Part shown: one piece after another, positions 401-47,964 of the stretch
Position numbering within the stretch: the first letter of the stretch is position 1
Layout: each line of letters opens with the position of its first letter
Source: a virus
Direction: 5' to 3' (one strand)
IMG/VR virus record: IMGVR_UViG_3300048580_000268
Coordinates: 1 to 55,359 of that record
Length of the DNA: 55,359 nucleotides
The notes under the pieces: model-generated
Told to the model about the DNA's origin: nothing
The model's input: only the letters and a program-made list of their open reading frames with translations
Databases searched by the model: none
Translations under genes and position numbers: made by a program

Positions 401-3061
401 CTAACCACCTTGTAGTGATCTATCTAGTGTTGATGTTGAGACTCCAAGGCGAGCTGCTACCTCAGCTCTAGTATAGTCACCAGTACTAAGTAAGGCTTGA
501 GCTTGCTTAGTCTTGGCATCTGTCATTAATAGTTTAGCTCTTGGTGTGGCTAGCTCTCTGACTTTATCCATGTCTGAGTTGTCTAGTATTGACCTGAGTT
601 TAGTATCACTTACTGCTCCAGCTTGAATAGCTTCCCATTCTTTAGGCTCAATAACTATCTTCTCTTTCTTAGCGCCTACTCTATTGCGGGCCTCTGTTAA
701 TGCCTGGCCGTTTAACTTCTTTTCAGAAGCTCGATCCATATGTGGATTTGCTTGCTTCTTCTGCTCCATGATTTCATTAGCTAGAATCTGAGCCCGTCTT
801 TCACGAGGGGCGTTTTCTTTTGCTATGCGGAGTTTAACATCTAGAGAAGAAACTTCTTTCTCGTAAACTTTCTTTGCAGAGGGGGATGAGATAGCGCCTG
901 GGGTATTAATCATTTCAAGTCTTGCTTTGTTAGCCATAGCTTTTAGTCTGTTTGAATGATTAGCATACAGTCTTTCAACTGGTGTACCAGAAGAAAGATC
1001 ATGAGCATCTTTTGCTAATTCAAGTTCCTCAAACTTCCTTAAGCTTAACTCTCCCGTTTTACTATTTACCCTACCTGTTGGCTCCCAAACAAGCTCGCCA
1101 GTCTTTCGGTCTATTGGCCCACCGTTTCTTGCCCTACGTGGTATGACCTCAGGAACCCTTATGTCACGGCCAGCCCTAGAGATAATAGTAGAAGCTCCAC
1201 CGCTACCATCAGCTTTACGTTGATACTTTTCTTGCAGGGCCCTAATGCGGTTATCTTTCTCTGACTGCTTATAATTCAATCTGTGTTTTTCAGCGTCAAT
1301 AACAACCATTGAATGGCGAACTGCTGCAGCTAACTCAGTCTCAGAAGCCCCATGCAAAGTCATGTCTGTGATTAGGTTAGAGATAACACCCATCTGCTTT
1401 TGTGTGTCGCCCATAATTTTCATACCTGGGTATTCTCGGTATGTTTCTCTGGGGTTAAAGTTCTTTAAACCTTCTAAAGCAGGCGTTGATCTTATTCTAC
1501 CTTTATCATTTGGTATAACTAATACCGTGTCTCCATCAAAGTCCGCTCCAGACAAACGTTCCGCAACTTGTGCGTTTATTGCCACTGCATCTTTAGCGCC
1601 TTTAAGAAGTTTATTAGCTTCCCTGTTCTTGTTGTTAACAACGAGAAGTGGGATTTCGAAAGTTCCTCCATGCGGGTAGCGTATTAGAGATACTTTTGTG
1701 CCGTTATCATAATTAGGGGCGTAGACTTCTGTCGGTGATAATGAATTAATAGGTAGTATCGCATACCATGCTTGACCAGGAAGACTTGCTGCCTTTAGGT
1801 GAACGGACGCGGCATCAGTTCCATCTGCAAACTCTTGAAGAAGTTTAGATTTAACTGTTGGATTAGTTAACGCCATGATTTCATCAAGTTCAGCTTGCCG
1901 CTGTTTATAGGTGGTGTCTAAACGCTCTCTAATAAGTTTTGGTTCTTGTTTAGAAAGAACTTGCGAGGCTATGGATTTTGACCATGCTCCCCAATTACCC
2001 TCTTCATTGACAATGTTTACTGCTGACTTGTTAACTTCTAACCCAGTTTTTGGATCTTTCTCTGTTATTTGTCTACGAATTACAGCGCCAAAAGGATTAT
2101 CTGGATCATCGGTTAACTTCTTTAAAGCATCAAGTTTGTTGTTAGTTCTTTCTTTATTAGTATTAAATTGTATATCGACTCCTGCAGGCAGATCATCTTT
2201 ATACATAGCCATACCTTTTAGGTAGTGCTCTGGACCTACTTTAATACGGACTTGAGCGTAACGAGATCCTCCAAGATCTAAATCTTTAACTCCTGGACGG
2301 ATATACATTACTCCATCTAAAGCCGACCCTCCATCAGGCCCATAGACGACGTCAATTCTTTTTGGATTGATTGATATCGGTGGAAGAATCCCTAATGTAG
2401 ACTTTCCAGTATCGTCTAAACGCTCGTTAAGCATCCGTATTTTATTTCGGTTTTTAACGGCGTCGCCCCAACTTGTACCAGGTTTCGCAAGCACTCTAAG
2501 TTTTGTGTCATAAACTGTTCCAAGCTGAGGAACCGGAACGTTTGAGTGAACTTCGTAACCTTCTGCTTTCAACATAGACAAAGCGACTTTTAAACGCTCT
2601 TCACTCACATTCAAGTACATTTCTGTACCTATACCGACATCCAACCAATCAACTTTATTAACCTGATCTCTTAAAATATTAGTTACTGTTTCAATAACAT
2701 CATTTTTCATTTTAGCGGCTGGAGCAAGAAGAGTTCTAAATGTTGATTCTGGAATCCCCATTTGCTCGGATGCTGCTTTATCTGACATCTGCTTGGTGTA
2801 TTTAAGATATTCAGCAGTTTTTATTCGTTCTTGTTGTCTCTCATTTTTAGCAATAGTCTTAAACGCCCGAAGATCTGCTACAGACATTTCAAAACTTTTT
2901 GCAATTTCAGCTTCTGTAAATTTATCTTCTTTTCTCAGCTTTTCAACCATATCAAGAAAGGTTCGACTATTCTTGACATTTCCACCAGATCCCCAAGGGT
3001 ATCGACCAGATTTTCTGGGAGTACCATAATGTTCAAGATAAACGTCTTCATCAATGTACAT
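401..3061 (-). CDS. YonO-like single-chain RNA polymerase candidate
   Basis: A protein of 886 residues with the signature of the double-psi beta-barrel catalytic core of multisubunit-type RNA polymerases: ADFDGD at residues 506-511, inside AERLSGADFDGDTVLVIP, matching the metal-binding NADFDGD motif of beta-prime. The preceding segment (YPHGGTFEIP, 462-471, then a conserved VVNN) and the helical region after it fit a compact YonO/QDE-1-like enzyme. The N-terminus has HYGTPRKSGRYPWGSG (11-26), then helix-turn-helix-like segments (about 46-70 and 86-112). Another lies at the extreme C-terminus (AEVAARLGVSTSTLDRSL). The start has AAAGGGGG 6 nt upstream. Inference: it transcribes some phage genes, or enters with the virion. 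The DFDGD motif is seen; polymerase activity is inferred. These proteins are often annotated only as hypothetical or structural. Confidence 0.72.
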   Translation of the reverse strand: MYIDEDVYLEHYGTPRKSGRYPWGSGGNVKNSRTFLDMVEKLRKEDKFTEAEIAKSFEMSVADLRAFKTIAKNERQQERIKTAEYLKYTKQMSDKAASEQMGIPESTFRTLLAPAAKMKNDVIETVTNILRDQVNKVDWLDVGIGTEMYLNVSEERLKVALSMLKAEGYEVHSNVPVPQLGTVYDTKLRVLAKPGTSWGDAVKNRNKIRMLNERLDDTGKSTLGILPPISINPKRIDVVYGPDGGSALDGVMYIRPGVKDLDLGGSRYAQVRIKVGPEHYLKGMAMYKDDLPAGVDIQFNTNKERTNNKLDALKKLTDDPDNPFGAVIRRQITEKDPKTGLEVNKSAVNIVNEEGNWGAWSKSIASQVLSKQEPKLIRERLDTTYKQRQAELDEIMALTNPTVKSKLLQEFADGTDAASVHLKAASLPGQAWYAILPINSLSPTEVYAPNYDNGTKVSLIRYPHGGTFEIPLLVVNNKNREANKLLKGAKDAVAINAQVAERLSGADFDGDTVLVIPNDKGRIRSTPALEGLKNFNPRETYREYPGMKIMGDTQKQMGVISNLITDMTLHGASETELAAAVRHSMVVIDAEKHRLNYKQSEKDNRIRALQEKYQRKADGSGGASTIISRAGRDIRVPEVIPRRARNGGPIDRKTGELVWEPTGRVNSKTGELSLRKFEELELAKDAHDLSSGTPVERLYANHSNRLKAMANKARLEMINTPGAISSPSAKKVYEKEVSSLDVKLRIAKENAPRERRAQILANEIMEQKKQANPHMDRASEKKLNGQALTEARNRVGAKKEKIVIEPKEWEAIQAGAVSDTKLRSILDNSDMDKVRELATPRAKLLMTDAKTKQAQALLSTGDYTRAEVAARLGVSTSTLDRSLQGG

Positions 3062-3076
3062 TATTTACCCCCTTTT

Positions 3077-3637
3077 CTAAGAATAGTTGATTCGACGAAT
3101 TTCTTCAATATAACTGACGTGTTCCACAATAGTCCTCATGATGTTATCAATTGCTTCTGGAAAAGGTTCAAAAATGCGAATTTCATCTCTTTGATAGATT
3201 CTAAGTTCTATAGAAATGTCGTAAGGGCTTATCTCATACTCTAAACAAAATAGAGCAGCGTATACCTCAAGTTGTTTTTCGCTAGTTTTTGTAATGCCAG
3301 TTTTTAAATCATGAATTCTTAATTTGTTCCTCCGAAAACAAATAGCGTCTGCCGTGCCAAAACAATGTTCAGAGTAAAAAAGAGTTTGCTCAGAAGTCAT
3401 TTTGTAATTTATAGCGTCATTGACATAAGTTGCGAGCGCCATATTGGATCTCGACAATTTAACGCCTAACATTATAGCATTGTGAGCTAGTTTGTGTAAA
3501 TCGTCGCCGCGCCTAGCTGCTTGCGCAGAGCTGTATCTAGCTTCTAGTTTTTGTTCGTCATAATTTATCCAATGATAATTACTTGGACTTAGAAAGGCGT
3601 GTTTATCTTTTAAGTCCAAATGCTGATTGAAGCGCAT
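3077..3637 (-). CDS. Cas4/RecB-like PD-(D/E)XK exonuclease
   Basis: A 186-residue nuclease-like protein. In order it has a helical region with DLHKLAH (His 48), FGTADAI (Asp 97), IHDLKTG (Asp 110, Lys 112) and QLEVYAALF (Gln 122). This is the H-D-(D/E)xK-QxxxY layout of RecB-type and Cas4-like exonucleases. I see no cysteine set for a Cas4 iron-sulfur cluster. It overlaps the upstream nuclease gene by 35 nt and sits 15 bp before the RNA polymerase-like gene, so it belongs to the same operon. The likely role is processing of phage DNA ends in recombination or replication. Confidence 0.75.
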   Translation of the reverse strand: MRFNQHLDLKDKHAFLSPSNYHWINYDEQKLEARYSSAQAARRGDDLHKLAHNAIMLGVKLSRSNMALATYVNDAINYKMTSEQTLFYSEHCFGTADAICFRRNKLRIHDLKTGITKTSEKQLEVYAALFCLEYEISPYDISIELRIYQRDEIRIFEPFPEAIDNIMRTIVEHVSYIEEIRRINYS

Positions 3638-3899
3638 CTAATACCTCTTCTTCATTTTCTGGGTAAATAAACGCCGCAAAAGACATTTGGTTAAGCGTCT
3701 TGACATAATACTCTTGATTTGGTTGGGCGTCTTCATTGATAGAACGCTTAACTTCAAGCATAGCCCATCTATCTTCATATAAAACAAGTAAGTCTGGTAT
3801 ACCTTGAATCTTAGACGGATCATTCTTGATAATGAGACAGCCGGGCAAGCAGTCATAGATCTTTTTAATAAGATCATACTGATATTTAGACTCTCGCAT
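3603..3899 (-). CDS. VRR-NUC-type endonuclease
   Basis: A 98-residue protein with KNDP near residue 26, GIPDLL (Asp 36) and LEVKRS (Glu 49, Lys 51). This is the compact PD-(D/E)XK core of VRR-NUC/Holliday-junction-resolvase-like nucleases common in phage replication modules. I chose the ATG at 3899 because GGAGG lies 7 nt upstream; a longer reading frame upstream has no such support. It overlaps the following exonuclease gene by 35 nt, so the two are probably co-translated. Likely role: cleaving branched DNA during replication or packaging. Confidence 0.8.
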   Translation of the reverse strand: MRESKYQYDLIKKIYDCLPGCLIIKNDPSKIQGIPDLLVLYEDRWAMLEVKRSINEDAQPNQEYYVKTLNQMSFAAFIYPENEEEVLDALQSAFGLKR

Positions 3900-3985
3900 C
3901 GATTGTCCTCCAAAAAATGAAATAAATGTTTCTAATATACCTCTTCTCTCTATTACAATCGTTGTAAATACTAATACTGTATACG

Positions 3986-4507
3986 TCATGTAAAACAGTA
4001 GACACTTCTTGTCGGGTAGATGGCTACCCCTTGTAGGGCGGAGGTTAAAAGATCGTCAAACAACACACCTTCTTTGATACCGGCTTCTATTATCGAAGAA
4101 TAGACCTCTCCTGTTTGTAGGTTGAGTATTTGTTTTGAGTAATACTCAGATGGGTACACCGGTTTGAATTGCCTTGAATACTTCTGAGCAAACCAAGCAG
4201 GCCGCCAAGCCAAGTTACGATAATAAAGATTACTCTTATCGTTGTCTAACACAATAACTGTGTCTGGAATCGCCGACTTGTGGAACCCTGGTGAGATTGC
4301 TGGCTTAGCCACAAAGTGTTCGGCTACCAAAACTCTTACGGACCTGGTAAGTCTTACACCTCCTTCAGACAATGTGACCTTATAGTCACCTTGCATAGTT
4401 CTACTTTCAGACATGAGACGTTCTAGCCTTCTATTGTATACAGAGCCATAGTTATTTATGAGGTAATTACCCATACCTTTGATGGGTACCCACTCTTCAT
4501 CGGACAA
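3986..4507 (-). CDS. HNH homing endonuclease with NUMOD4 domain
   Basis: A 173-residue protein. The first 25 residues (EEWVPIKGMGNYLINNYGSV) match the NUMOD4 DNA-binding motif of phage homing endonucleases. Residues about 83-101 (VIVLDNDKSNLYYRNLAW) match the degenerate HNH core that usually follows it. The start is TTG, supported by AGGAG 6 nt upstream; starting later would remove the NUMOD4 motif. It stands between the helicase/small-protein pair and the nuclease pair, as expected for a free-standing mobile endonuclease. Confidence 0.82.
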   Translation of the reverse strand: MSDEEWVPIKGMGNYLINNYGSVYNRRLERLMSESRTMQGDYKVTLSEGGVRLTRSVRVLVAEHFVAKPAISPGFHKSAIPDTVIVLDNDKSNLYYRNLAWRPAWFAQKYSRQFKPVYPSEYYSKQILNLQTGEVYSSIIEAGIKEGVLFDDLLTSALQGVAIYPTRSVYCFT

Positions 4508-4597: not shown

Positions 4598-4795
4598 CTA
4601 CACCAAGATCAGTCGTATAAGGTATACTAAATCTATAGAACTTTTTGACAAAAATATATGACGCGAACGACGCCGCTCAAAATAGTGCCGTTTAAACGAC
4701 TTTCGTGTAGTTTCATACACTTTTCTACTTATTTTAACAGCTTTTTCGTCCTGAAAAGGCGTCATATTTGAACACGTTTTTTCAAAGTTTCTCAT
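4598..4795 (-). CDS. Small basic hypothetical protein, 65 aa
   Basis: A 65-residue Lys/Arg-rich frame. Its ATG overlaps the helicase stop codon (TGATG), an arrangement typical of translational coupling. The middle (KSFKRHYFERRRSRH) is strongly basic and could bind nucleic acid; the end is hydrophobic. I recognise no family. It has no Shine-Dalgarno of its own, so confidence that it is expressed is only moderate. Confidence 0.42.
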   Translation of the reverse strand: MRNFEKTCSNMTPFQDEKAVKISRKVYETTRKSFKRHYFERRRSRHIFLSKSSIDLVYLIRLILV

Positions 4796-6027
4796 CAACA
4801 CTGCTCAAGTTCGATAGAATCAATCAATTTATCATAGAATTTTCGCTCATTGAAGCTTTTTTTTGAGGCCAATGATTCCTTAATTCCTCGATCGATCACC
4901 GAATTCGACGCCAAGATATAGTAGTAAAGGACGTCAAATGGGGTATTCAGCCGGTCAATTCTACCCTGACATTGCTCAAAGTTCTTGTACGAATATGTCA
5001 TTGAGTACATGATCATAGCGTTCGTATCTACACAATTCCAACCTTCTGCTCCCGATGTGTACTGCACAAGATACACCCATTTATCAGTGTCTGGGATAGG
5101 CTGCTTACGATGCCCATTCCACTCCGCGACGGTGATGTCATCAGCAAGCGTCCTGAGAATCTCAAGCTCGAAGTTGAAGGTGTAGAAGATGATTAGTTTG
5201 TCATGACACGTCATCAGTTTGCGAACCATCTCAAGACGAGACGGGTGTTCGTTCACAACGCGTCTCATCAGTCTAAAGACTTCTGCGATGTCGCGGACGG
5301 GAGCATCATCGTAAGGATTCCACCGACGAACAAACACGGTGTTAAACAGATTATGGTTGTACTCAACATCGATGTAGTTGATCACCCGCGTGGTATGTCG
5401 CTCGTATGGCATCTCTACAAGAACATCGTTACGCAGTACTTCGAGCCTCTGCTCGTTGAGGTAACCTTTGATCTTTGGGTATTTTGAGAAGGCTTCGTAT
5501 ACTACGTGCTGCATTTTGAAGTCAGTGATGTTCTTGTAAAACCCGTTGGCTATAAAGACGGGGGCATAATCCAACCACGAGTCTCCTGGGGTAGCGCTGA
5601 GAAGAATCCATCTGTTGTTTCTGGAAATTTTGAGGAATGACTTAACCCAAGCTCCATTTCCAACCAATCTCTGCTCGTCAAAGATGAAGAACCGATCTTG
5701 TAGACCCTCAAACTTACTAATGTTGTTCCAGGACTCCACGATGAGAGCGCCGTCTGAAGTATACTCTTGAGCTGTTGAAATTCCAAACCTTGCTGCTTCT
5801 GTTTCCCAATCCATACTATCACGCTTCTTGGCGGTTGTGATGACGACGATGTCACGAGGTGACTCCTTTTCTTTGTAGTACGATAGTACTGTCCGGGTTT
5901 TACCGCTCCCAACACCGCCGTGTAAGATTTTACCGTTTCCTAGATTTTTTACTGCTTCTTCCTGATGCGGTTGTAACTCATGCATAGTCAGTACGTACTC
6001 ATCTACTTGTAGGGCTAAGTTATTCAT
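4795..6027 (-). CDS. SNF2/DEAD-like superfamily 2 helicase
   Basis: A 410-residue SF2 helicase or translocase. Visible motifs: Walker A GGVGSGKT (37-44), ITTAKKRDSMDWE (motif Ia region), Walker B IFDEQR (115-120, DEQR in place of DEAH), motif III LLSATPGDS (142-150), motif V region TSGAEGWNC and motif VI QCQGRIDR (352-359). This is the short helicase form common in phage replication modules. AGGATG lies 5 nt before the ATG. A terminator from the preceding cassette sits just upstream, but I see no clear promoter between them. It is first in the set helicase, nucleases, RNA polymerase-like gene. Confidence 0.9.
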   Translation of the reverse strand: MNNLALQVDEYVLTMHELQPHQEEAVKNLGNGKILHGGVGSGKTRTVLSYYKEKESPRDIVVITTAKKRDSMDWETEAARFGISTAQEYTSDGALIVESWNNISKFEGLQDRFFIFDEQRLVGNGAWVKSFLKISRNNRWILLSATPGDSWLDYAPVFIANGFYKNITDFKMQHVVYEAFSKYPKIKGYLNEQRLEVLRNDVLVEMPYERHTTRVINYIDVEYNHNLFNTVFVRRWNPYDDAPVRDIAEVFRLMRRVVNEHPSRLEMVRKLMTCHDKLIIFYTFNFELEILRTLADDITVAEWNGHRKQPIPDTDKWVYLVQYTSGAEGWNCVDTNAMIMYSMTYSYKNFEQCQGRIDRLNTPFDVLYYYILASNSVIDRGIKESLASKKSFNERKFYDKLIDSIELEQC

Positions 6028-9245: not shown

Positions 9246-9423
9246 TTACTCTTCTAAGTATGGATAAACAATGAAACTTACAAGCCTTTGGTTTGGGCCA
9301 GCTTTGAACATGGGATTCATAACCAAAGCATAGGGATGCTTTTCGTATAAATTGAGCAGCTCATCTTCAAGATATACAAAACCGACAGTTTCACTATCAA
9401 TTAGTATTGGTACGCGTTTCATG
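9246..9423 (-). CDS. Hypothetical protein, 58 aa, starting inside a tRNA end
   Basis: A 58-residue protein (MKRVPILIDSETVGFVYLED...) with no membrane segment. Its ATG shares two bases with the CCA end of the tRNA-Leu gene, and the GGGGG of the tRNA acceptor stem is the only ribosome-binding candidate. A longer frame would read through the tRNA and is rejected. AT-rich codons. No family recognised. Confidence 0.65.
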
Positions 9424-9511
9424 GTGCCCCCAGTGGGATTCGAACCCACACGACTTTTTAAAGTCCTTCGGGTTTAAGCCGAATGCGTCTGCCTGATTTC
9501 GCCATGGGGGC
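9422..9511 (-). tRNA. tRNA-Leu (anticodon TAA), CCA encoded
   Basis: A 90-nt cloverleaf with a GCCCCCA/TGGGGGC acceptor stem, anticodon loop CTTAAAC in a TTCGG/CCGAA stem, a long variable arm (GACTT/AAGTC) as in class II tRNAs, T-arm with GGTTCGAATCC, discriminator A and a genomic CCA. It reads TTA (and TTG), codons that are rare in high-GC actinobacteria. Confidence 0.95.
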
Positions 9512-9517
9512 TGGTGG

Positions 9518-9868
9518 CTACACGTCTGTCAAGTCCTTCCAAGAAGTTGTCCTGAACAGTTCTCTACAGAGACCGTCGGACTCGTAGAAATCGACAAACC
9601 CAACCCAGTCATCAGGGAAAATCATCTCGTGTTCTTGATCGAGACTATCGCGGTCCTGGGCCCAGTTGACGTGCTCGTGAACGACGATCTCTGAATTGGT
9701 CATTGCTTCTACGACCCACAGGTCACCATGCTCGAACATGATCTCGAAGTAAATCGGGTACCAAGTACCATCGATGATCTTCGGGAAACCCTCAACTTGA
9801 ATATTGACTGCTGGAATAATCACACCATTAATCTTAACGCAATTATTGAGATCTTCCAAGACGTCCAT
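9518..9868 (-). CDS. Hypothetical acidic protein, 116 aa
   Basis: A 116-residue soluble acidic protein (MDVLEDLNNCVKINGVIIPA...) with alternating strands (IYFEIMFEHGDLWVVEAMTN) and aromatic C-terminus. AAGGAG lies 6 nt before the ATG. It sits 6 bp upstream of tRNA-Leu in the same transcript direction. No family recognised. Confidence 0.75.
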   Translation of the reverse strand: MDVLEDLNNCVKINGVIIPAVNIQVEGFPKIIDGTWYPIYFEIMFEHGDLWVVEAMTNSEIVVHEHVNWAQDRDSLDQEHEMIFPDDWVGFVDFYESDGLCRELFRTTSWKDLTDV

Positions 9869-9881
9869 TAATTACTCCTTA

Positions 9882-10118
9882 TTAATACGGATCGGCGTAC
9901 TTACCATGCCAAGGATCATTACACGGCTCTAGGTGTTTACCACCCAGATCATTATACATAATCAAGCGTCGAGTCTTTTGCCGGTCACTCTGGCAGGTTG
10001 GGCACGGATAAACTTCTTTATCCTTAGACTCCGCCCAAGACAACCAAACTAAAAGGCCTAAAACAAAAAGAAAGAGGCCCCAAAAATACCAAGTACCGAA
10101 CCACTCTAAAACTGTCAT
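9882..10118 (-). CDS. Membrane protein with zinc-ribbon-like tail, 78 aa
   Basis: A 78-residue protein: N-terminal membrane helix (WYFWGLFLFVLGLLVWLSW), then CPTC and, 30 residues on, CNDPWH, which could bind one metal ion. Start at 10118; an upstream in-frame start would translate the tRNA gene and is rejected. The ribosome binding site (AAAGGA) is rather far from the ATG. No family recognised. Confidence 0.7.
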   Translation of the reverse strand: MTVLEWFGTWYFWGLFLFVLGLLVWLSWAESKDKEVYPCPTCQSDRQKTRRLIMYNDLGGKHLEPCNDPWHGKYADPY

Positions 10119-10138
10119 TATCTGTCTTTTTCCTTTTG

Positions 10139-10211
10139 TGGGCTGGGAGGGAATTGAACCCCCGACCGAGTTATTATGAGTAACCTGCTCTAACCACTGA
10201 GCTACCAGCCC
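10139..10211 (-). tRNA. tRNA with CAT anticodon (Met or Ile2)
   Basis: A 73-nt cloverleaf: acceptor GGGCTGG/CCAGCCC, D-arm AGCTCAGTGGTTAGAGC, anticodon loop CTCATAA, T-arm GGGGGTTCAATTCCC, discriminator A, no genomic CCA. CAT could be elongator Met, or Ile for ATA if the C is converted to lysidine. I cannot tell which from sequence alone. Confidence 0.93.
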
Positions 10212-10218
10212 TAGAGCT

Positions 10219-10437
10219 TTATTCAACTACAATCGTGATTCCAAGAATTTTGTTATTGGCGAGATCAACAGCAGCTTCAGGAGGAAGTTGCAGCAAATAT
10301 GGGTCTTCTGATATCTCCTCAAATTGCTGAGATGTGATTCGAATCGTTTCGTTTTGAGCGATAAAGGTTTCTCCGTCCAAAAGACTAGTTGTTTTCAGAT
10401 CATGAACTGCGTCTATAAGATCTTTGAAGTTGGTCAT
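10219..10437 (-). CDS. Hypothetical protein, 72 aa
   Basis: A 72-residue acidic protein (MTNFKDLIDAVHDLKTTSLL...) with a helical N-terminus and a hydrophobic C-terminal strand (ILGITIVVE). AAGGA lies 5 nt before the ATG. It overlaps the upstream gene by 38 nt and ends 7 bp before the CAT tRNA. No family recognised. Confidence 0.7.
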   Translation of the reverse strand: MTNFKDLIDAVHDLKTTSLLDGETFIAQNETIRITSQQFEEISEDPYLLQLPPEAAVDLANNKILGITIVVE

Positions 10438-10627
10438 TTTTGTCCTTAGTTGTGTTAAATCGCCGAGGCTTTACGATGTTCGACCTCTTGACAGAAAATA
10501 CTGCCGCGTAGTCGTCTCGAAACCAAACATGAGTCTCGTCCTTGTCTATGACTTCAACAAGACCTTCGTCATGATCTCGGCCAAGATGCTCGTGGTAATA
10601 GGTCAACTCTACAAATTCTGGAACCAT
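10400..10627 (-). CDS. Hypothetical protein, 75 aa
   Basis: A 75-residue protein (MVPEFVELTYYHEHLGRDHD...): a strand-rich acidic first half (GLVEVIDKDETHVWF), possibly an SH3-like small barrel, and a basic tail (KPRRFNTTKDKNDQLQRSYRRS). AGGAGG lies 4 nt before the ATG. No family recognised. Confidence 0.7.
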   Translation of the reverse strand: MVPEFVELTYYHEHLGRDHDEGLVEVIDKDETHVWFRDDYAAVFSVKRSNIVKPRRFNTTKDKNDQLQRSYRRSS

Positions 10628-10663
10628 GTTTCCTCCTAATTAAAAATGGCTAATGAAAATGCC

Positions 10664-10732
10664 GGACACTAAGAACTATGCACGCAGTCGTCAATGAGTG
10701 GATAGTTTGTGGTTGGATAACCCTTAGTGCCC
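10664..10732 (-). ncRNA. Stem just 3' of tRNA-Lys
   Basis: GGACACTAAG (10664-10673) and CTTAGTGCCC (10723-10732) pair at nine of ten positions around a loop of about 49 nt. There is no reading frame here. It could be a processing or terminator element after tRNA-Lys, or a further domain of the large RNA with the tRNA embedded. Confidence 0.4.
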
Positions 10733-10739
10733 AGCACAG

Positions 10740-10813
10740 TGCACCCCCTGGGACTTGAACCCAGAACCAACGGATTAAAAGTCCGACGCTCTAACCAATT
10801 GAGCTAGAGGTGC
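10740..10813 (-). tRNA. tRNA-Lys (anticodon TTT)
   Basis: A 74-nt cloverleaf: acceptor GCACCTC/GGGGTGC with one wobble pair, D-arm AGCTCAATTGGTTAGAGC, anticodon loop CTTTTAA, T-arm CTGGGTTCAAGTCCCAG, discriminator A, no genomic CCA. It reads AAA. Its 5' end abuts the long structured RNA region, so RNase P cleavage here could also set the 3' end of that RNA. Confidence 0.95.
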
Positions 10814-12077: not shown

Positions 12078-12548
12078 CTACAATATATCAGAAGGGTGCG
12101 CAGCGTACTTACGCTCTAACTCATCCTCACGAATGGTGATGTAGAGCGACTGAAGATACGCTTTGATGCCGGTCTTTCCGTTTACGGCCCACTCATACCC
12201 GCGAGCAATGAGATCTGCAGTTTGTACATCTGCCCAATCAAGAACAGCAACGCTGTCCTCAGTAAGCTGGGTTCGAGCCGTAGAGGTGATCATGATGACC
12301 TTTGGCGGGCGAATGTTAAAGTTCACAGTCACCTGAATATATGGCGTAGGTGTATCACCTTCGTCCCTCGGCTCAAGGTAACGAACATTCCATCCGTCGT
12401 TCAACAGATTTACTGCGGACTCGTCGTCCAAAATGACCGAAAAGTTTCGGTCTCCTTCACGATTGTACTGACCCTCCTTACCAGAAAAGTTCCGGAAAAT
12501 AAGAGTCGCGTCCTCCACGATAAATGTCTTTGCTTCTTTACTTGTCAT
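12078..12548 (-). CDS. Single-stranded DNA-binding-like protein
   Basis: A 156-residue protein of a phage family usually placed as ssDNA-binding-like. It opens FIVEDATLIFRNFSGKEGQYN and NFSVIL, has an OB-fold-like run of strands in the middle (YIQVTVNFNIRPPKVIMIT), and ends NGKTGIKAYLQSLYITIRED with a charged tail. It lies 10 bp after the primase-helicase-polymerase gene, the expected place for a replication partner. AAGGAG lies 6 nt before the ATG. The ssDNA-binding role is family knowledge plus context; no motif proves it. Confidence 0.62.
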   Translation of the reverse strand: MTSKEAKTFIVEDATLIFRNFSGKEGQYNREGDRNFSVILDDESAVNLLNDGWNVRYLEPRDEGDTPTPYIQVTVNFNIRPPKVIMITSTARTQLTEDSVAVLDWADVQTADLIARGYEWAVNGKTGIKAYLQSLYITIREDELERKYAAHPSDIL

Positions 12549-12558
12549 AAATATCTCC

Positions 12559-15500
12559 TTAAGATATAAAGTCTTCGAAGTTACCGAATTTATTGATGCT
12601 CTCTTTGGCTTTGTCTACGAGCGTTATGAAATATGAATCATCAAGCTGGTAGTTTTGGTTGTCTTTTGCCACAGAAGCCTCAACCCATGAGTAATCTTTT
12701 GTTCCTGTTACGGCATAATGTTTATTGTCCTTTATTCTATAAAGCCGTCCTCCTCCTTCGACAACTGGCACAAATCGACCAGTTCGGCCAACGTGCCTCA
12801 TTTGCTCTATGATCTCACTACCTTCAAAGTCCAAATACATTACTCCTTGAGTAACGGTTTTGGCTTCACAAATATCATCAAAAGTGATCTCTTCGCCGCT
12901 GAACAACGTCTTGTAAACGTAAGGATGTTGGAACTGCGCGCCTACCGCTTCCCACTTATCACCGCTCTTAGCAATATAAACAGCGTCATTTACTAAACAG
13001 AACTTTTCGTAAGTTCCTTCATGCTCAAAATCGTATCCGTAGTCAGAGCCAAAGTCCTTGACAAACTGAATGATTTCGGGCGTTGCATTAGGGATCTTTA
13101 TTGAATCTGTTTTGATATGGGCGACGACAAAACCTTCATCTTGAACAGCGTGCTTGAGATCAATCATGAACAAAGCACCGCGTTTGGCTACGATGTTGTC
13201 TTTGTTACGGTAGTCCTTGAACGGGTTGTCGAATCTTGCGCTTGTGAGACCATAGACGATGTTAATGACAATCTTAAGAGCGTAGGACAGAGCGTCAAGC
13301 TCATCTTCAGAGCCTGAAACAAACTGTTCGAGTTTACCGTCCAGCAGAGTTTTGGCTCGATTGTAGTCCTTATGCTTAATCGCCATACGTGCTGTCTTGA
13401 GCTCACTGAATCGGTTTGTGTAAGGTCCGAACAAGTCAAGGCATTCGATAGACGTCGGATGCATACTCGCAACGTCAAGAAGTGCCACATCCGTATAGAT
13501 ACCTGGTTCAGCATAGACGTATCCTCCTTCACCAGTAACTTCACCCTTATAAAAACTCTCTTTACCATTAAATATATAACCAGGAAACTCTTCGCTGAGA
13601 TCACTGTAGACAAAAGAACTCTGTGGCTTTTTGTCGTCACCAAATATGATCTTAGCGGTATGATTCTGAGTTGTGTGGTTTACGGATAATCCAGAAAGCT
13701 CAGCAAGGATTTTTCTGGCGACGAAGTCTTGTCTGCGAGAATTGAAAACTGCTTCAGTAGCAACGACGTCGTTAACGCAATACTCTTCAACTTTTTTCCA
13801 CAAAGACTCATCCACGGGTTCATCCCATGGAATATCCAGTTCCATATGAAGAATCCCAAGTTCAATCTGGAACTTCTTTAGCCCTTGCTTTTTTGAACTG
13901 AAGTCGTAAATATCCGCGTATGACAGATTGTATGCCTCGCCAAATAAGACGTTACGCTCGTTTCCTCCATTGATGATCCTGCTACTTAAATTGTAGAGCT
14001 CTTCGTTAGAGTACCCTAAATAACGCGCGTAAAGAATATGATTGTCATAACGTCTATTGTTGAACCCCACCAATTTGTTACCAAGAAGCTCTTCGACCTC
14101 TTGCGGAGTTGGGTTAATCATTCTTGAAACGCCATCTGAGTTTTCAGACTTCCAACAGACAATAAACAGATTAGGATATACCTCTACGTCAAAGAACACT
14201 ATAGGTTTATCTTGCTCGTCGATGACCTCTGGCATCTCAGACTTACCAACAAAATCCATTTTTTGGACTAAACTGACACAATATGAAGACTGATGTGAGC
14301 TTCCTGCCGCAAAGGTTAGGATGTTTGACCGTAAATCCCGAACGTCATACGAAAGTCCTTCGTCATACGCATCTTTAAGAATCTTATGAATGAAATCTAT
14401 AGAAGGCTTTGTCCCAGGATGGATTTCCTTTTTGAGATTTCGAATAATTAATTCTCTGAGAGAACGTTCGCTTTTAATACTCTGAACGTCTAGCAACTTC
14501 TTTTCCTTTGTTGGAAGCCCATCATATAAAGGCGTAACGTTTATCTTATTACACTTAGTTAATTTTCGTCGAAGTGAAGAATTCCCAAGGAGTGTTTTAA
14601 TTTCGACTCCAACAGAATGTAGATTTGCTAGGCTTTCGACATCCCCATAATAGTTGTAATGAAGATGTAAACCATGCCCACTCTTACTAAGTTCAGCGTA
14701 GGTGACGGGCCAAGCGTTTGCTTTTTCAAGACATGCCTCTATGTTTTTTACACCGTCTTCGTCAGTAAGATCAAAATCGATCACAATATGCTCACGAGGA
14801 ACCTGAACGTAATGAAGTTTTGATGTGTCAATATCCTTCAGCGTTGTCGTGACATTTTCCCAGCGCTTCTCTGGTGTCCCGTCGTCCTTAGCATACTGAG
14901 CAGGCTGATTAGCGAATAGCTCGTCGAAGACAGAAAGCCCTTCTTCAAGCTCGATAGAATATGGACCATCGGTTTTGATAGGCATATCAGCCTTTGGAGG
15001 AGACTGGGCAAGATGTTTGAAACCTTTGTAATAACTGCGCACATCGGCTCCATCAATCTTGATTCTGTCGTGGAAGTCTTCGAAGTAGTCCTTGAGATGC
15101 TCTCGTAACTTGTATTGAGGAAGCATCTTGTCGATACCCGTCTCGCTACAGAACTCTTTGTAGAGAGTCCAAGCCCGACGCAATGTAACCCCGTCTTCAG
15201 CCTTGAAAATATCAAAGTTGGCTTCCACGAAATTATAGAAGACGTCGGTTTGGAGCATCATTTCAGTTGGGCGATATGAGCTATAATGATTTTTCCCAAG
15301 CGCAAGGTACTTCTGTAAACAAGAATATGCGATTGAACCAAGCTCAAAATCAATCTTTTCCATAAGAAAATGGTACGTATCGTGGTCAATTGTCCGTTGA
15401 GTAGGAACAACATCAATAAGACGACGAATAATACCAGACTTGGCGTCCGTGATCTTGACCGGGAGGTTTGTCCCCATAAATAAGAACGCGTTTGACTTCG

Positions 15501-16293
15501 TCTCAAAAGGCATACGGTACTTCTCATTTACCGTCATAGTCTCGTGAGCAACAATCGAGTTCAGCTTTGTGTTGTCGTAGATTCTGGAGAGGTCCCCGTC
15601 GTGCTGAATAGCGACGAGAGGGTTTGACTTGAACGCAGCGGTAGCAAAGGCGTTATTGTTACCAGCCAGCTCTCTTGCGTCGAAGACCGCCGTATATCCA
15701 TGGAATAATTTCTGGATGATATTAAGGATAGTAGACTTACCGCTTCCAGGCGGTCCGTAGAAGACAAGGAACTTCTGAATATGTTTTGAATCTCCAGAAG
15801 CAATTGCGCCGATAGCCCATTCAATCTTCTCACGCTCCTCTTCAGAATATAGAGTTCCGACAATAGTATCCCAAGCAGAGCATTCTCCTGGGTGTAATGA
15901 ATATGGAAGGCGTTTACTTACATAATCGGTTCGCTTAACTTCAGTGTTTGCGAAGGTTAAAACCTCGTCAAGATTGTGGCTGTTGTTACCACTATTCCGG
16001 ACAAACCGCTGAAACTCGTCCCACAACTTTGTTGAGTTGGATTCAAGAGAAGCTACGGTATGAATAATACCGCTTCTTTCCTGCATCTCTTTTTGGTTTT
16101 TGAAAAGGTCAGCATCAACAAGACGCTGAACATCGTAAATATCAGTAGACCAAAGACCTTTGTCCTCGTCCCAAATGGCGTAGAACGCACCACCGCGAGT
16201 CATTAGGTCTTTGGATCTACCAACCTTGAAATCAGGGCGGATCTGCAGTGTACCATCTTTTTTCTCCTTAACAATAATATTATAGAAGTCCAC
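12559..16293 (-). CDS. SF3 helicase - primase - family B DNA polymerase fusion
   Basis: One 1,244-residue chain. Helicase: Walker A GPPGSGKS (180-187), Walker B-like VAIQHDGDLS (227-236), sensor FLFMGTNLPVK (270-280) and IIRRLIDVVP (288-297), as in P4/D5 SF3 helicases. Primase-like: VIDFDLTDEDG (504-514, DxD) and SKSGHGLHLHY (536-546), as in archaeo-eukaryotic primases. Polymerase: Exo I FFDVEVYP (700-707), Exo II VGFNNRRYDN (742-751), Exo III YCVNDVVATEAV (838-849), motif A LLDVASMHPTS (938-948), motif B KIVINIVYG (1007-1015) and motif C KTDS (1061-1064) where most family members have DTDS. The start is GTG after AAAGGGGG. It should unwind, prime, copy and proofread phage DNA. The motifs are direct observations; activity of each domain is inferred. 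Confidence 0.9.
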   Translation of the reverse strand: MDFYNIIVKEKKDGTLQIRPDFKVGRSKDLMTRGGAFYAIWDEDKGLWSTDIYDVQRLVDADLFKNQKEMQERSGIIHTVASLESNSTKLWDEFQRFVRNSGNNSHNLDEVLTFANTEVKRTDYVSKRLPYSLHPGECSAWDTIVGTLYSEEEREKIEWAIGAIASGDSKHIQKFLVFYGPPGSGKSTILNIIQKLFHGYTAVFDARELAGNNNAFATAAFKSNPLVAIQHDGDLSRIYDNTKLNSIVAHETMTVNEKYRMPFETKSNAFLFMGTNLPVKITDAKSGIIRRLIDVVPTQRTIDHDTYHFLMEKIDFELGSIAYSCLQKYLALGKNHYSSYRPTEMMLQTDVFYNFVEANFDIFKAEDGVTLRRAWTLYKEFCSETGIDKMLPQYKLREHLKDYFEDFHDRIKIDGADVRSYYKGFKHLAQSPPKADMPIKTDGPYSIELEEGLSVFDELFANQPAQYAKDDGTPEKRWENVTTTLKDIDTSKLHYVQVPREHIVIDFDLTDEDGVKNIEACLEKANAWPVTYAELSKSGHGLHLHYNYYGDVESLANLHSVGVEIKTLLGNSSLRRKLTKCNKINVTPLYDGLPTKEKKLLDVQSIKSERSLRELIIRNLKKEIHPGTKPSIDFIHKILKDAYDEGLSYDVRDLRSNILTFAAGSSHQSSYCVSLVQKMDFVGKSEMPEVIDEQDKPIVFFDVEVYPNLFIVCWKSENSDGVSRMINPTPQEVEELLGNKLVGFNNRRYDNHILYARYLGYSNEELYNLSSRIINGGNERNVLFGEAYNLSYADIYDFSSKKQGLKKFQIELGILHMELDIPWDEPVDESLWKKVEEYCVNDVVATEAVFNSRRQDFVARKILAELSGLSVNHTTQNHTAKIIFGDDKKPQSSFVYSDLSEEFPGYIFNGKESFYKGEVTGEGGYVYAEPGIYTDVALLDVASMHPTSIECLDLFGPYTNRFSELKTARMAIKHKDYNRAKTLLDGKLEQFVSGSEDELDALSYALKIVINIVYGLTSARFDNPFKDYRNKDNIVAKRGALFMIDLKHAVQDEGFVVAHIKTDSIKIPNATPEIIQFVKDFGSDYGYDFEHEGTYEKFCLVNDAVYIAKSGDKWEAVGAQFQHPYVYKTLFSGEEITFDDICEAKTVTQGVMYLDFEGSEIIEQMRHVGRTGRFVPVVEGGGRLYRIKDNKHYAVTGTKDYSWVEASVAKDNQNYQLDDSYFITLVDKAKESINKFGNFEDFIS

Positions 16294-16305
16294 AGAACCC
16301 CCTTT

Positions 16306-16829: not shown

Positions 16830-17630
16830 TTAATCACCTGGTCTAAATTTAGTAATAGAGTGTTTAAGAGAAGCTCGCTCCTCTTCAGCCTCATACTCCA
16901 AACCAAGAACTTCGACTGAGTAGCTCCCTCGGTCTTTAAGAATTTCATACTCTGCTTTGAGTTTGTCGTTCCTAACATAAACCACGTTCTGATCCGATGA
17001 GCCATGGCCGAAGTTTAGAGTGCCAACTACTTCTTTGTAATTGTAAATTGGCACATCAGTCTGATCAACAAGAATATCATCACTGGCGTAGTATGTGAGC
17101 GTAGTCTGTTTGTAGTCTAACTCTTCGGCCCAGAATTCATCTTTGTTAAGAATATACGGAGAATCTTTAGTTCTCTTACTCTCTTCAGAATCCTGATCCC
17201 AATCGGCATTTACCTCGTTGAATACACTCACTACGTCTGATCCTTTATCCGATTCACTTTTAAAATACTCTTCGCGATAAAGGCGCATACCTTCTGTGAA
17301 TCCGTGCTCATTAATTAACATGTCTCGGCGTTCAATTGCATCAAAGTCTACTTTGATGTCTGCCGGGTCGTTGTTTGGCGGATCAATTACAATATCGGTT
17401 AAAGAGTCGAGTAAATCTTCTGTATGATCTTCCTCAGCAGAATCTTCGGCCCAAATAATATCTGGAAACTTAATGACGGTAGCTTCTTCATCAGGCTCAA
17501 TGATAATATCTGATCTTTTCATACGAACTAAGCCAAAACCGAGACCGAAGCCGCCGCAAAACACGGCGACCCCGATCCCGAAAGGCTTGGTGTTCGGATG
17601 ATGAATAAGTTTTTGTATTCTATCGATCAC
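16830..17630 (-). CDS. Conserved membrane-anchored phage protein, 266 aa
   Basis: A 266-residue protein with an N-terminal glycine-rich membrane segment (FGIGVAVFCGGFGLGFGLV), an acidic linker (about 40-115) and a conserved C-terminal domain (SPYILNKDEFWAE, TLTYYASDDILVD, GHGSSDQNVVYVRND, HSITKFRPGD). Start is GTG with AGGGG 6 nt upstream, overlapping the end of the 301-residue gene. It is a partner in a block seen in many phages; function unknown. The C-terminal domain is probably cytoplasmic. Confidence 0.83.
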   Translation of the reverse strand: MIDRIQKLIHHPNTKPFGIGVAVFCGGFGLGFGLVRMKRSDIIIEPDEEATVIKFPDIIWAEDSAEEDHTEDLLDSLTDIVIDPPNNDPADIKVDFDAIERRDMLINEHGFTEGMRLYREEYFKSESDKGSDVVSVFNEVNADWDQDSEESKRTKDSPYILNKDEFWAEELDYKQTTLTYYASDDILVDQTDVPIYNYKEVVGTLNFGHGSSDQNVVYVRNDKLKAEYEILKDRGSYSVEVLGLEYEAEEERASLKHSITKFRPGD

Positions 17631-18525
17631 CTCGCACCCCTATCTTGTCGTAAATGACTCCGTCGACGTTGAAGTCTAGAAGGATAGATCGCTCCCAACC
17701 GTTGACAAAATCTCGTTGATAAGCGTCAAATATCCCGAAGTCAATATAGTTGTCTCCTTCCGGGCCAAGAATCCAACCCACTACGGCGCCAGCACTAGAA
17801 TGCTCAATACCAAAATGGTCATAGATCTCATTCAAGAACACATGGCCTCTAATCTGAAGCTTGTTGTTGAAGAGGTTTTGAGCGGCTTGAACATACAGAC
17901 GATTTATCTCAGAATTCTTTTCCCAGTAAGGAGAAGCTTCGTCGAACCATCTAGCGTAAGGAGACCACCGATTAGGATCGGCAATCTTGATCACTTCTTT
18001 TGAGCCGTCTTCACGAGTGATTATTCGGTTTTCGATAGCATGATAAATATCAAGCTCTCTATCGGCACCAATTTCGCTTTTGACTCGAATGCGATACTCT
18101 TCGTACGCAGTTGAGACAGCAGCCACCGCCGCGGTAAGCGACGCATTACGACGTTTAAGAGTAACGTGCGACCCAGTAAGAGCTCCAATAGAGAGAGCTC
18201 CAACAATAATAGAGGGTCCGTACAGCTTAGCAATCTTTACCGTGTTCTTGCCGTACACATACCCTAGGTCTTTGTAGTACTCACGTTCGCTATAACTATC
18301 GTCGCTGCTGTTTAACCTACGCTCGCCCATAGCTTTAACGTCTTCGATTTCCTCCTGAAAATCGTCAACAGCATCGGGAAGACTTAGCGTTGCTCGACAA
18401 GCAAGAACAGTTCCTCCGAGAACACCGACTATACCGAAACCAAAGAACGTTTGAGGAGAGTTCTTCTTTGACTTGAGCGCTGACCTAACTATTGTTCTTG
18501 TTAATTTATTAGGAACAAACCGCAT
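17620..18525 (-). CDS. DUF6353-like membrane protein, 301 aa
   Basis: A 301-residue protein with a basic N-terminus, membrane segment 1 (FFGFGIVGVLGGTVLACRA) and segment 2 (YGPSIIVGALSIGALTGSHV), then LKRRNASLTAAVAAVSTAYEEYRIRV, the hallmark of a phage membrane family (DUF6353). The C-terminal part contains HVFLNEIYDHFGI and VVGWILGPEG. It is a paralogue of the gene at 19806-20540. Topology suggests a two-pass membrane protein with a large cytoplasmic domain. Function unknown. Confidence 0.83.
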   Translation of the reverse strand: MRFVPNKLTRTIVRSALKSKKNSPQTFFGFGIVGVLGGTVLACRATLSLPDAVDDFQEEIEDVKAMGERRLNSSDDSYSEREYYKDLGYVYGKNTVKIAKLYGPSIIVGALSIGALTGSHVTLKRRNASLTAAVAAVSTAYEEYRIRVKSEIGADRELDIYHAIENRIITREDGSKEVIKIADPNRWSPYARWFDEASPYWEKNSEINRLYVQAAQNLFNNKLQIRGHVFLNEIYDHFGIEHSSAGAVVGWILGPEGDNYIDFGIFDAYQRDFVNGWERSILLDFNVDGVIYDKIGVRGDR

Positions 18526-19805: not shown

Positions 19806-20540
19806 TTAGATAGGCTTGACGTAATTGTAGTTAAAAGCCAGGCAAGGTCGTCCATCCTCCGAAAGGACTGTCGAAAAGTTTAGTTCCATGAGCTGATCAG
19901 AATCCCATCCCAATTCGCTCGAAAGCGAAGTGTTAGGAAGGTTAATAAGGTCATAGAACTCATCTAAAGTCACATACAGCTCGTTCATTACTTTTGAGTT
20001 TATGTCGTTCTGAGCTTTTCGTAGAGTTTCCATATCTGACATGAAATATCGACGCGTGTAAAGCTCACAGCACATTACTTCACCCCGACCAGAGAGTACG
20101 ACCATGTCTGGTGATTTGTTGGAAACCACGTCCCGAGCAATATCGTCTTTGATTATTTGCTCTTTGTGCTTTCCGATTTCTTCAACTACCTTTGTTCGGT
20201 ATTCAGAAAATGCTCTTTCCGTAACAGTGTATGCGCTAATCGCCGCAGCGGTTCTCTGAGCACCAAGCTTACTACCGTAGGCAATGGCCCCGATTGTAAC
20301 CGCGCATGTAGTTATCGGTGGAATATAGAATTTCCAAACAAGATTTGCGTTTTCTTTAAGTTTAGTCGTTTTGTCTTCGGCGGTGCTACCTACTTGATCA
20401 ATAGTGCGAGCCGCTTTGAACGAGGCAGTTGCTGTCAAATATGCAGTTGTTACAACGCCAAAAATACTTAATCCGGTCAGTATTGGGCCTGTGTTTTTGT
20501 TGAGGAGTTTTGATGTATGACGAATGTAATTTTGAATCAT
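19806..20540 (-). CDS. DUF6353-like membrane protein, 244 aa
   Basis: A 244-residue protein with two membrane segments (ILTGLSIFGVVTTAYLTATA; FYIPPITTCAVTIGAIAYGS) then LGAQRTAAAISAYTVTERAF, which matches the family hallmark of its paralogue at 17620-18525. The C-terminal region has LYVTLDEFYDLINLPNTSLS and ELGWDSDQL. Its ATG overlaps the stop of the 38-residue gene, which sets the start; a longer frame would overlap that gene. Function unknown. Confidence 0.83.
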   Translation of the reverse strand: MIQNYIRHTSKLLNKNTGPILTGLSIFGVVTTAYLTATASFKAARTIDQVGSTAEDKTTKLKENANLVWKFYIPPITTCAVTIGAIAYGSKLGAQRTAAAISAYTVTERAFSEYRTKVVEEIGKHKEQIIKDDIARDVVSNKSPDMVVLSGRGEVMCCELYTRRYFMSDMETLRKAQNDINSKVMNELYVTLDEFYDLINLPNTSLSSELGWDSDQLMELNFSTVLSEDGRPCLAFNYNYVKPI

Positions 20541-20653
20541 CGACGGCGCATCTCCCTGACAAAAATCCAGATGAGCCAAAGCCCTCCGGTAATTAGAGTC
20601 AGAAGGATATCCATCACAAAACTTAAACAACCGTAGTTGTTGTTATTACTCAT
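20537..20653 (-). CDS. Small membrane protein, 38 aa
   Basis: A 38-residue protein (MSNNNNYGCLSFVMDILLTL...) with one membrane helix ending GGLWLIWIFVREMRRR, a pattern I recall from very small conserved phage membrane proteins. AGGAGAAG lies 8 nt before this ATG; an in-frame ATG 15 codons upstream is poorly spaced. Its TGA stop overlaps the next ATG, indicating coupled translation. First gene of the membrane block. Confidence 0.75.
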   Translation of the reverse strand: MSNNNNYGCLSFVMDILLTLITGGLWLIWIFVREMRRR

Positions 20654-37000: not shown

Positions 37001-39031
37001 TCAGTCGCGAGTGAACGTCCAGCTATCGTCTTCGCTCGTGGAGAAGTAGTAACCGGCCGCCGGGGTGGCGTCGATGGTGATCGAGGCACCCGAGGCGATT
37101 GCCGCGTACGGCGAACCTGCTGCGTTGACAACGGTAGCGCCGTTCTTGTAGACGACACCAGTCTGGTTGACAATGGTCAGAACGCCGGTCGTAGTATTGA
37201 AGGAAGGCTCGTTAGGAATAACCAGAATATCGGTTCCAGCAACCTTACGGACGACCATCGCGGCCTTCAGCTTGGTCAGCGCTCCAGAGAGGCGGGTCTC
37301 AATCAAGTACTTCTGACGGTTGTAGTCGATGTCGAAGTCGTCAAACATGCTGACCTCTCCACCTCGCGTGGAGCCAACCGTGTAATCGGTCGGGTTCACA
37401 AGGACGGCAACCAGCTCGGGCTCGTCTTCCATGACCTCAACCGAAACAACCTCAGTGACGCGCAGCTCAGCCGCAAGCTCCTCAAGGTTCTTGTAAATGC
37501 GACGACCAAGAGTGTCCTTCAGAAGAAGGAATTTAGCAATGTAGGTCTCGGTGGTGTACATGGTCGGGAGACCAGTGCCGCGAAGGTGACGACGATTCAT
37601 CACAATAGCGTCGACAATCTCCTGAACAGAGGAGTTGTTATCGTCGATGTTGACGTTGACCTGAGTAGTGTAAAGCTCGTGATCCGAAGCAATCGGGCGA
37701 ATACACTGGTCGTTGATCTTCTCTTCCGACGCGGGGTCGCGGCCATCGCCGATCAGAATTGCTCGCGCAATTTCTTCATCGAGCATCAGACGCATCTCAC
37801 CCTTGAGCCAGGCGACAACATCGAAGTCAGTGATGTCGATCATGTCGTCACGATCAAGCTGCTGCTTCTTGTAAATGGTGGTCGGGCTGGTGACTCGCCG
37901 AGCAACCGAGAAGAACTCGGTTTTCTTCAAATTGCCTTTGATGTAACCCTTGGCCCGAGCCTCTTCCTCGGTAATGTCAGCCATGAGGGTCTTGATCCGG
38001 CTGAACGGGCGCTTGCGAACACCCATCATCACCTTGTCAACCCAATCGGTCCGACGACCAAACCACTCGGGCGTGTCGGTTGCCGCCACTGCATCCGGGA
38101 ACAGGAGATCGATGTTGGTGATGCCGTGCTGGAGAGCGTAGCTTTCGACCGCGGTCCTCAGCGAGCCGCGAGCCGTGGCGTCAGCAACAATAGCTTCCAT
38201 ATCTGCGTGAGAGAGGATAAGCTCCTCTTTCGTGTCTTTCTTGTCTTCAAAAACATTCGTACGACTCATTTGATCGTCGCCTTTCTGATCTATGTTATCC
38301 TGGGCAAGGGTTTTGTCGGTATTAGTATTGTCTTCGGCTTCGGCAGTACTAAGCGCTTCGCCAATCATATAATGAAGAACATCTTTTTGCTTATCAGTCA
38401 TAGACTCATAAACATCAGCGATGGTTTCTTCTGAGTCGTCTGCCATCTTTTCTGCGTGAGAAATATTGTCTATAACTTCATCAGAATCTTCGGTAGACTC
38501 TTCAACATCATCTTCGTCATCATCTTCGTCATCATCTTCGTCACCATCTGACTCATTATCTTCAGTAGACGGAACGTCTACCTCTAGTCCAGTGTAAATA
38601 ATAGCTTCTTCGTCTAAGACCTCATCTTCAAAATCTGAGTGACGAATTGTAACGTTCTCAATGACAGCTCCTGGATTAGCTCCGCTGAGAACTAAACTGA
38701 CCTCACGAATTGCGCCATGAAGAACTCGACCCGAGCGCTCAATGAGCTCATTCGCCCAGATTGAAAGGCGGTTTATGTCTCCATGCTCTAAAAGTTCTCG
38801 CGTGTGAATAGCTTTTGGTGAGGAATTAAAGAATCCATATGCATAAACCCCGTCAGACCTTGCCTCTAAAAGGGCGTGACCAAGAACGTTTTCGGGATCG
38901 CTATGACCGTGCTGCCAAACCAAAGGAACCTTAACTTGATCCTGGTGTTTGAAGGCGTCCGGCATGATTGTTCTGCCATCAGAACATTTAAGCCCTGATT
39001 TAGTGGCATAACCGCTAAAATCTGCTTCCAT
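37001..39031 (-). CDS. Prohead protease fused to major capsid protein
   Basis: A 676-residue protein. Residues 1-120 are an HK97-type prohead protease: VWQHGHSDP (His 41 or 43) and EVSLVLSGANPGA (Ser 112 or 116). Residues 155-185 are a nearly pure Asp/Glu linker. Residues about 255-600 are the capsid protein (ending VAGTDILVIP), and 602-676 an Ig-like decoration domain ending DDSWTFTRD. An in-frame ATG at residue 255 (MSRTNVFED, 38269) has a possible SD (AAAGG) upstream and marks a switch from AT- to GC-rich codons, so separate capsid synthesis is possible. Protease in cis could mature the shell. Confidence 0.88.
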   Translation of the reverse strand: MEADFSGYATKSGLKCSDGRTIMPDAFKHQDQVKVPLVWQHGHSDPENVLGHALLEARSDGVYAYGFFNSSPKAIHTRELLEHGDINRLSIWANELIERSGRVLHGAIREVSLVLSGANPGAVIENVTIRHSDFEDEVLDEEAIIYTGLEVDVPSTEDNESDGDEDDDEDDDEDDVEESTEDSDEVIDNISHAEKMADDSEETIADVYESMTDKQKDVLHYMIGEALSTAEAEDNTNTDKTLAQDNIDQKGDDQMSRTNVFEDKKDTKEELILSHADMEAIVADATARGSLRTAVESYALQHGITNIDLLFPDAVAATDTPEWFGRRTDWVDKVMMGVRKRPFSRIKTLMADITEEEARAKGYIKGNLKKTEFFSVARRVTSPTTIYKKQQLDRDDMIDITDFDVVAWLKGEMRLMLDEEIARAILIGDGRDPASEEKINDQCIRPIASDHELYTTQVNVNIDDNNSSVQEIVDAIVMNRRHLRGTGLPTMYTTETYIAKFLLLKDTLGRRIYKNLEELAAELRVTEVVSVEVMEDEPELVAVLVNPTDYTVGSTRGGEVSMFDDFDIDYNRQKYLIETRLSGALTKLKAAMVVRKVAGTDILVIPNEPSFNTTTGVLTIVNQTGVVYKNGATVVNAAGSPYAAIASGASITIDATPAAGYYFSTSEDDSWTFTRD
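38506..38541. repeat. Three 12-bp tandem units in capsid linker
   Basis: Three perfect copies of CATCATCTTCGT. On the coding strand they give the repeating Asp-Glu-Asp-Asp of the acidic linker between protease and capsid. Copy number could change by slippage. Confidence 0.9.
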
Positions 39032-47954: not shown

Positions 47955-47964
47955 GATATGTTCC

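Follow-up and report, generated by a model that had tools for sequence, protein, structure and literature searches.

The 55,359-base stretch of viral DNA held as IMG/VR record IMGVR_UViG_3300048580_000268 (the window, by which the whole stretch is meant) almost certainly carries the gene for the phage's own replicase, which is related to GP55 of lactococcal phage 1706 and belongs to the HelPrimPolB group. The gene lies at 12559..16293 on the minus strand, as do all of its parts for which coordinates are given below, is present as a single copy in the window and encodes a protein of 1,244 aa, the whole of which is matched by the phrog_4210 profile at 1,887 bits. The domain order is that of a superfamily 3 (SF3) helicase, an archaeo-eukaryotic primase (AEP) domain, a helical domain and a family B DNA polymerase (PolB) with its exonuclease, and the active sites of these enzymes are intact.

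This architecture is not new. It was given the name HelPrimPolB by Kazlauskas et al. (NAR 2020, PMC7544198), who cite an earlier 2016 paper of the same group as the first description of the fusion. The activities of a member were demonstrated in 2025, when GP55 (YP_001828703.1) was purified by Zhang et al. (NAR 2025, PMC12205980) and found to have polymerase, 3'-5' exonuclease, helicase and RNA primase activities, with the helicase driven by UTP or dTTP only, the primase having a strong site at 5'-CCAAC-3' and the protein able to replicate single-stranded M13 DNA de novo. Mutations have tied K189 to helicase activity, D509 and Y655/F667 to priming, D712/E714 to the exonuclease and D949 to the polymerase, the two aromatic residues being part of a helical domain (aHD) that is required for priming (PMC12205980). 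Over 1,000 homologues of GP55 are reported in the same study.

When the window protein is aligned with GP55, 488 of 1,190 aligned positions are identical (41%, 857 bits), over window residues 18-1174. All seven of the residues tied to function by mutation are identical, with K189, D509, Y655, F667, D712, E714 and D949 of GP55 corresponding to K186, D508, Y649, F661, D702, E704 and D940 of the window protein. Across the family six of these seven are near-universal, whilst the Y655 position is occupied by Tyr or Phe. The enzymatic activities, the dependence on UTP or dTTP, the dimerisation and the preferred priming site are those demonstrated for GP55, and by homology the window protein may share them.

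The reading frame is secure. Minus-strand translation of 12559-16293 runs through 1,244 residues and meets no internal stop, whilst the plus strand has stops throughout, thus neither the in-frame stop nor the frameshift that might have split the gene is present. The start codon is GTG at 16293, with what is likely a strong ribosome-binding site, AAAGGGGG, read from the sequence at 16298..16305, 4 bases before it, and the alignment of relatives begins at a matching (M/V/L)-D-F, in agreement with this start. Residues 564-1244 are found again on a second contig (L003) at 100% identity, so the frame over this region is not a one-off assembly error.

It could still be argued that separate genes were joined through an error of annotation or assembly, as the frame is interrupted in 2 of the 177 matching loci. 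These are L169, a Eubacterium ramulus contig with an in-frame stop near residue 367, and L168, from a Bacillales metagenome bin, with a frame break near residue 953. However, there is no gap between the parts at the interruption in either, and these are taken to be decayed prophage copies or sequencing errors. Of the same 177 loci, which are biased to full-length matches because the best 80 of each scan were retained (of at least 573 and of 131 confirmed), 162 have one intact open reading frame (ORF) and 13 are ended by the end of the contig (L003, L004, L046, L054, L084, L090, L122, L145, L148, L157, L162, L165 and L175); the C-terminal ends of L010 and L150, counted among the intact loci, match weakly. 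In a collection of 50,697 phage records, 328 match the protein and 252 of these, many of them isolates, cover at least 80% of it, which rules out a chance match, and the best match is to Gordonia phage Fazel at 59.8% identity. The AEP domain used alone as a query finds 253 records, hardly above the number with the full-length fusion. The chance that the fusion is an artefact is therefore put as close to nil.

These searches also served as a survey of relatives for split versions, as had been proposed in an earlier, sequence-only reading of this DNA, and no natural split version of the replicase was found among the 177 loci and in the AEP search of the phage collection. No free-standing AEP relative occurs among the 40 matches listed of the 253, and the shorter matches among the 60 listed for the full protein are PolB-only or helicase-only relatives, examples being those from Enterococcus, Listeria and Escherichia phages. 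A two-piece match in the Streptomyces phages Thiqqums and pSt2402 was considered as a split and rejected, as both hold the full fusion together with a short extra gene. The latter, at 3971-4468 of the Thiqqums locus (L007) and 2504-2959 of the pSt2402 locus (L008), is located 5' of the full-length gene and matches the window protein at 27% over residues about 140-341. It is a reduced paralogue of the helicase core of the replicase. A Walker A-like loop is kept in both phages, whilst the arginine finger pair and much else has been lost, and the product might work together with the helicase or regulate it.

The conservation of individual residues was read from an alignment of 159 distinct rows, the window protein and 158 non-identical relatives, two rows being the interrupted genes. 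Active-site residues of the helicase, AEP, exonuclease and polymerase are near-invariant in this alignment, which shows strong selection on all three enzymes.

The N-terminal region and SF3 helicase domain span residues 1-430 (15004..16293), as placed by Pfam and profile matches. Pfam DUF5906 matches residues 178-290 with 50.6 bits, where the cut-off is 27.6, and weak matches to PPV_E1_C (papillomavirus E1) and to Pox_D5 (poxvirus D5, residues 350-408) are found in the same region. Against solved structures the helicase-region profile matches primases that include a helicase part, namely DNA primase 7ola and the 'Primase' chains 6k9e and 6k9c, the latter two being the helicase part of the NrS-1 protein. 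The Walker A motif GPPGSGKST (residues 180-188, 15730..15756) contains K186, the counterpart of GP55 K189, and G180, G185, K186 and T188 are kept in 159/159 rows. The Walker B-type strand is LVAIQHDGD (residues 226-234, 15592..15618), recognised by the conservation of D232, which is present in 158/159 rows and replaced by E in the remaining one, and the arginine finger pair R290-R291 (15421..15426) is found in every one of the 159.

Sequence profiles recognise the middle part of the protein weakly. Matches of the AEP domain to phrog_3022 (E=4e-4) and phrog_695 (E=8e-4) are weak, Pfam Prim-Pol falls below the cut-off on the window protein (E=0.1) and reaches E<=1 in 46 of 70 aligned members (best 0.0019), and the AEP sequence profile searched against solved structures gives no primase, with unrelated weak matches alone. 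From the predicted structure, the AEP (PriS-like) fold of the catalytic domain at residues 451-597 (14503..14943) is nevertheless clear. The AlphaFold2 model of residues 436-690 has a mean pLDDT of 89.7 and a pTM of 0.62, and the best solved structural match of the domain is the NrS-1 primase-polymerase, with Z 9.8 and a root-mean-square deviation (rmsd) of 3.4 over 141 aligned residues at 13% identity for N300 (7rr4), and a Foldseek E=2.9e-6 for 6a9w. The next matches, pRN1 ORF904 and a CRISPR-associated Prim-Pol, have Z of 5-6.4. The primase fold that the sequence-only reading had placed at 490-600 is therefore present in the prediction.

The weak profile matches, together with a Glu in AEP motif III where Asp is usual, might be taken to mean that the middle domain has lost catalysis and survives as an AEP-like remnant for DNA binding, with priming left to the host primase or to a phage RNA polymerase. 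The active site argues otherwise. Motif I is D506-F-D508 (14770..14778), in which D508 is the equivalent of GP55 D509, motif II is SKSGHGLHLH (residues 536-545, 14659..14688) and motif III is E564-I-K566 (14596..14604), and D506, D508, S536, H543 and motif III are present in 158/158 rows with a letter at the position; a dead remnant would not be expected to keep D506, D508, H543 and E564. GP55 has the same Glu, and its D509 mutation identifies the PriS-like domain as the maker of primers (PMC12205980). A dead domain is accordingly considered very improbable, and a working primase remains the preferred reading. Behind it, residues 605-680 (14254..14481) form a four-helix domain in the AlphaFold2 model (model positions 174-185, 197-209, 217-228 and 234-242), which the alignment with GP55 makes the counterpart of the aHD, with Y649 and F661 in the places of Y655 and F667.

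The family B exonuclease and polymerase domain, residues 697-1244 (12562..14205), is predicted with a mean pLDDT of 93.2 and a pTM of 0.87 (AlphaFold2 model of residues 686-1244). The best Foldseek match of this part is the 9N polymerase 4k8x (E=1.7e-17), and it aligns with Pol alpha 8g9l over 446 residues with Z 16.5 and rmsd 6.4. ExoI is D702-V-E704 (14182..14190), equivalent to GP55 D712/E714, ExoIII is Y838-C-V-N-D842 (13768..13782) and polymerase motif A is DVASMHP (residues 940-946, 13456..13476), its D940 matching GP55 D949. D702, E704, D750, Y838, D842 and D940 are all found in 158/158 rows with a letter.

Motif C is KTDS (residues 1061-1064, 13102..13113) and is thus without the first Asp of DTDS. 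KTDS is also motif C of piPolB and is invariant here, in 157/157 rows with a letter, from which it could be proposed that the PolB domain starts DNA without a primer as piPolB does; a literature search for piPolB together with KTDS found no paper with KTDS. However, GP55 shares the motif, yet no DNA was made de novo by mutants of it that lacked primase function, nor is dNTP-only synthesis reported for its isolated PolB domain (PMC12205980), and in PMC7544198 HelPrimPolB falls within the EpsilonN-like clade, near crAss-like PolBs, and piPolB forms a separate cluster. Primer-independent synthesis by the PolB domain is therefore considered highly unlikely, and the replicase is best regarded as one that makes and then extends its own primers. 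As GP55 has both KTDS and the motif III Glu, neither oddity prevents activity.

Carried over from GP55 by homology, the mode of action may be sketched as follows. The N-terminal helicase domain would help to open the duplex and give strand displacement, the PriS-like domain and the aHD-like domain behind it would synthesise short RNA primers at favoured sites on the template, and the PolB domain would extend these primers whilst its exonuclease proofreads. The helicase domains probably hold the replicase together as a dimer or a larger ring. With helicase, primase and PolB steps combined in this way, one protein could both start and extend DNA on a single-stranded template.

A number of points weigh against so direct a transfer from GP55, beyond the weak recognition of the AEP domain by profiles. 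At 41% identity the nucleotide preference of the helicase, the priming site and the oligomeric state may differ from those of GP55, and the last 70 residues of the window protein do not align with it. GP55 itself is mainly a dimer in solution, as opposed to the hexamer expected of SF3 helicases (PMC12205980). Furthermore, some phages of the group, including that of the window, encode another helicase in a gene of its own, and the replicase may therefore not act by itself.

The sequence-only reading had proposed, without giving the strand, SF3 helicase, AEP primase and family B exonuclease-polymerase in order on one polypeptide, and this is borne out by Pfam, the predicted folds and the conserved motifs. 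Its suggestion of an almost self-contained replisome is also supported. Where it went astray was in implying that a helicase-first order is rare, as this is the defining order of HelPrimPolB (PMC7544198) and GP55 is a characterised member (PMC12205980).

A more interesting lead than the architecture of the replicase is the RNA polymerase that occurs alongside it. At 401-3061 on the minus strand is a gene for an 886-aa protein of phrog_4291, annotated 'RNA-dependent RNA polymerase', with a DFDGD motif at residue 507. The product is probably a single-chain two-barrel RNA polymerase, presumably YonO-like. Relatives of this two-barrel type are found in 250 phage records, against 253 for the AEP domain of the replicase, and when totals per genus are compared the two counts are equal in Arthrobacter (95), Gordonia (55), Streptomyces (54), Lactococcus (13), Siphovirus (12), Curtobacterium (7), Rhodococcus (4), Microbacterium (4) and Faecalibacterium (2). 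Many records label this RNA polymerase merely 'helix-turn-helix protein'. It is a speculative idea, and on balance an unlikely one, that the HelPrimPolB replicase and this RNA polymerase form a fixed pair, so that what these phages inherit as a unit would be a core of two proteins for replication and transcription and not just the replicase. If this were true, the replicase may depend on the RNA polymerase for transcripts, for opening of the origin or for late transcription.

The genes between the two, again on the minus strand, have in part counterparts in phage 1706. Immediately downstream of the replicase is a single-strand annealing protein (12078..12548, phrog_4787), which corresponds to phage 1706 orf66 (tblastn 33%, E=9e-26). 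The separate helicase (4795..6027, phrog_62, with weak Helicase_C/ResIII matches) corresponds to orf67 (40%, E=8e-95), and two small nuclease genes, for an endonuclease (3603-3989) and an exonuclease (3077-3637), together spanning 3077..3989, are the counterparts of orf68/69. The order downstream of the replicase, single-strand annealing protein, helicase, endonuclease, exonuclease and RNA polymerase, is thus common to the window and phage 1706. Three tRNA genes (Leu-taa, Met-cat and Lys-ttt; 9422-10813, minus strand) are located after the replicase and before the separate helicase. Upstream of the replicase are two phrog_2152 paralogues on the minus strand, at 17620-18525 (Pfam DUF6353) and 19806-20630, and the gene is doubled in Gordonia phage Fazel too. 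Further away, a 676-aa protein (37001-39031, minus strand) can be matched along most of its length to a family of head maturation proteases, and at 355-585 also to a family of major head proteins, and is possibly a fusion of protease and capsid protein. GC content reaches 62.5% at 46001-48000, within an 884-aa ORF (45300-47954), compared with about 37-50% in the remaining 2-kb steps, and this region may have been acquired recently or encode a repetitive structural protein.

The published picture of HelPrimPolB replicases is unchanged by the window gene, which is a fairly distant new member of the known HelPrimPolB or GP55-type replicases. Its distance from GP55 does reveal which features are fixed, these being the three active sites, the Glu of AEP motif III and the KTDS of motif C. 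The gene also confirms the compact helicase-primase-polymerase as standard equipment in a large set of phages of Actinobacteria, Firmicutes and others.

Compared with other systems, the NrS-1-type PrimPol-helicase has the primase first and the helicase second, and is without PolB. The window protein shares the fold of the AEP domain with it, but has the order helicase (1-430), AEP (451-597) and then PolB. The authors of the GP55 study likewise compare the AEP part of their protein to the NrS-1 primase-polymerase, although the helix-bundle domain of NrS-1 differs from the GP55 aHD (PMC12205980). Full-length matches, at no more than 59.8% identity, are found to the actinophage 'DNA primase/polymerase' of phrog_4210, as in Fazel, Rhodococcus phage ReqiPoco6 and Arthrobacter phage Mudcat. 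In the ReqiPoco6 record the N-terminal part is annotated as COG3378 and the C-terminal part as PolB, and such records usually label the primase and polymerase and leave the helicase unnamed. With HelPrimPolB, as described in PMC7544198, the window protein shares an SF3 helicase and a PrimPol domain ahead of PolB and a divergent motif C, here KTDS, and no difference was found in the features compared, namely domain order and motif C. The closest characterised counterpart is GP55, which at 1,317 aa is longer than the 1,244 aa of the window protein but has the same four domains in the same order.

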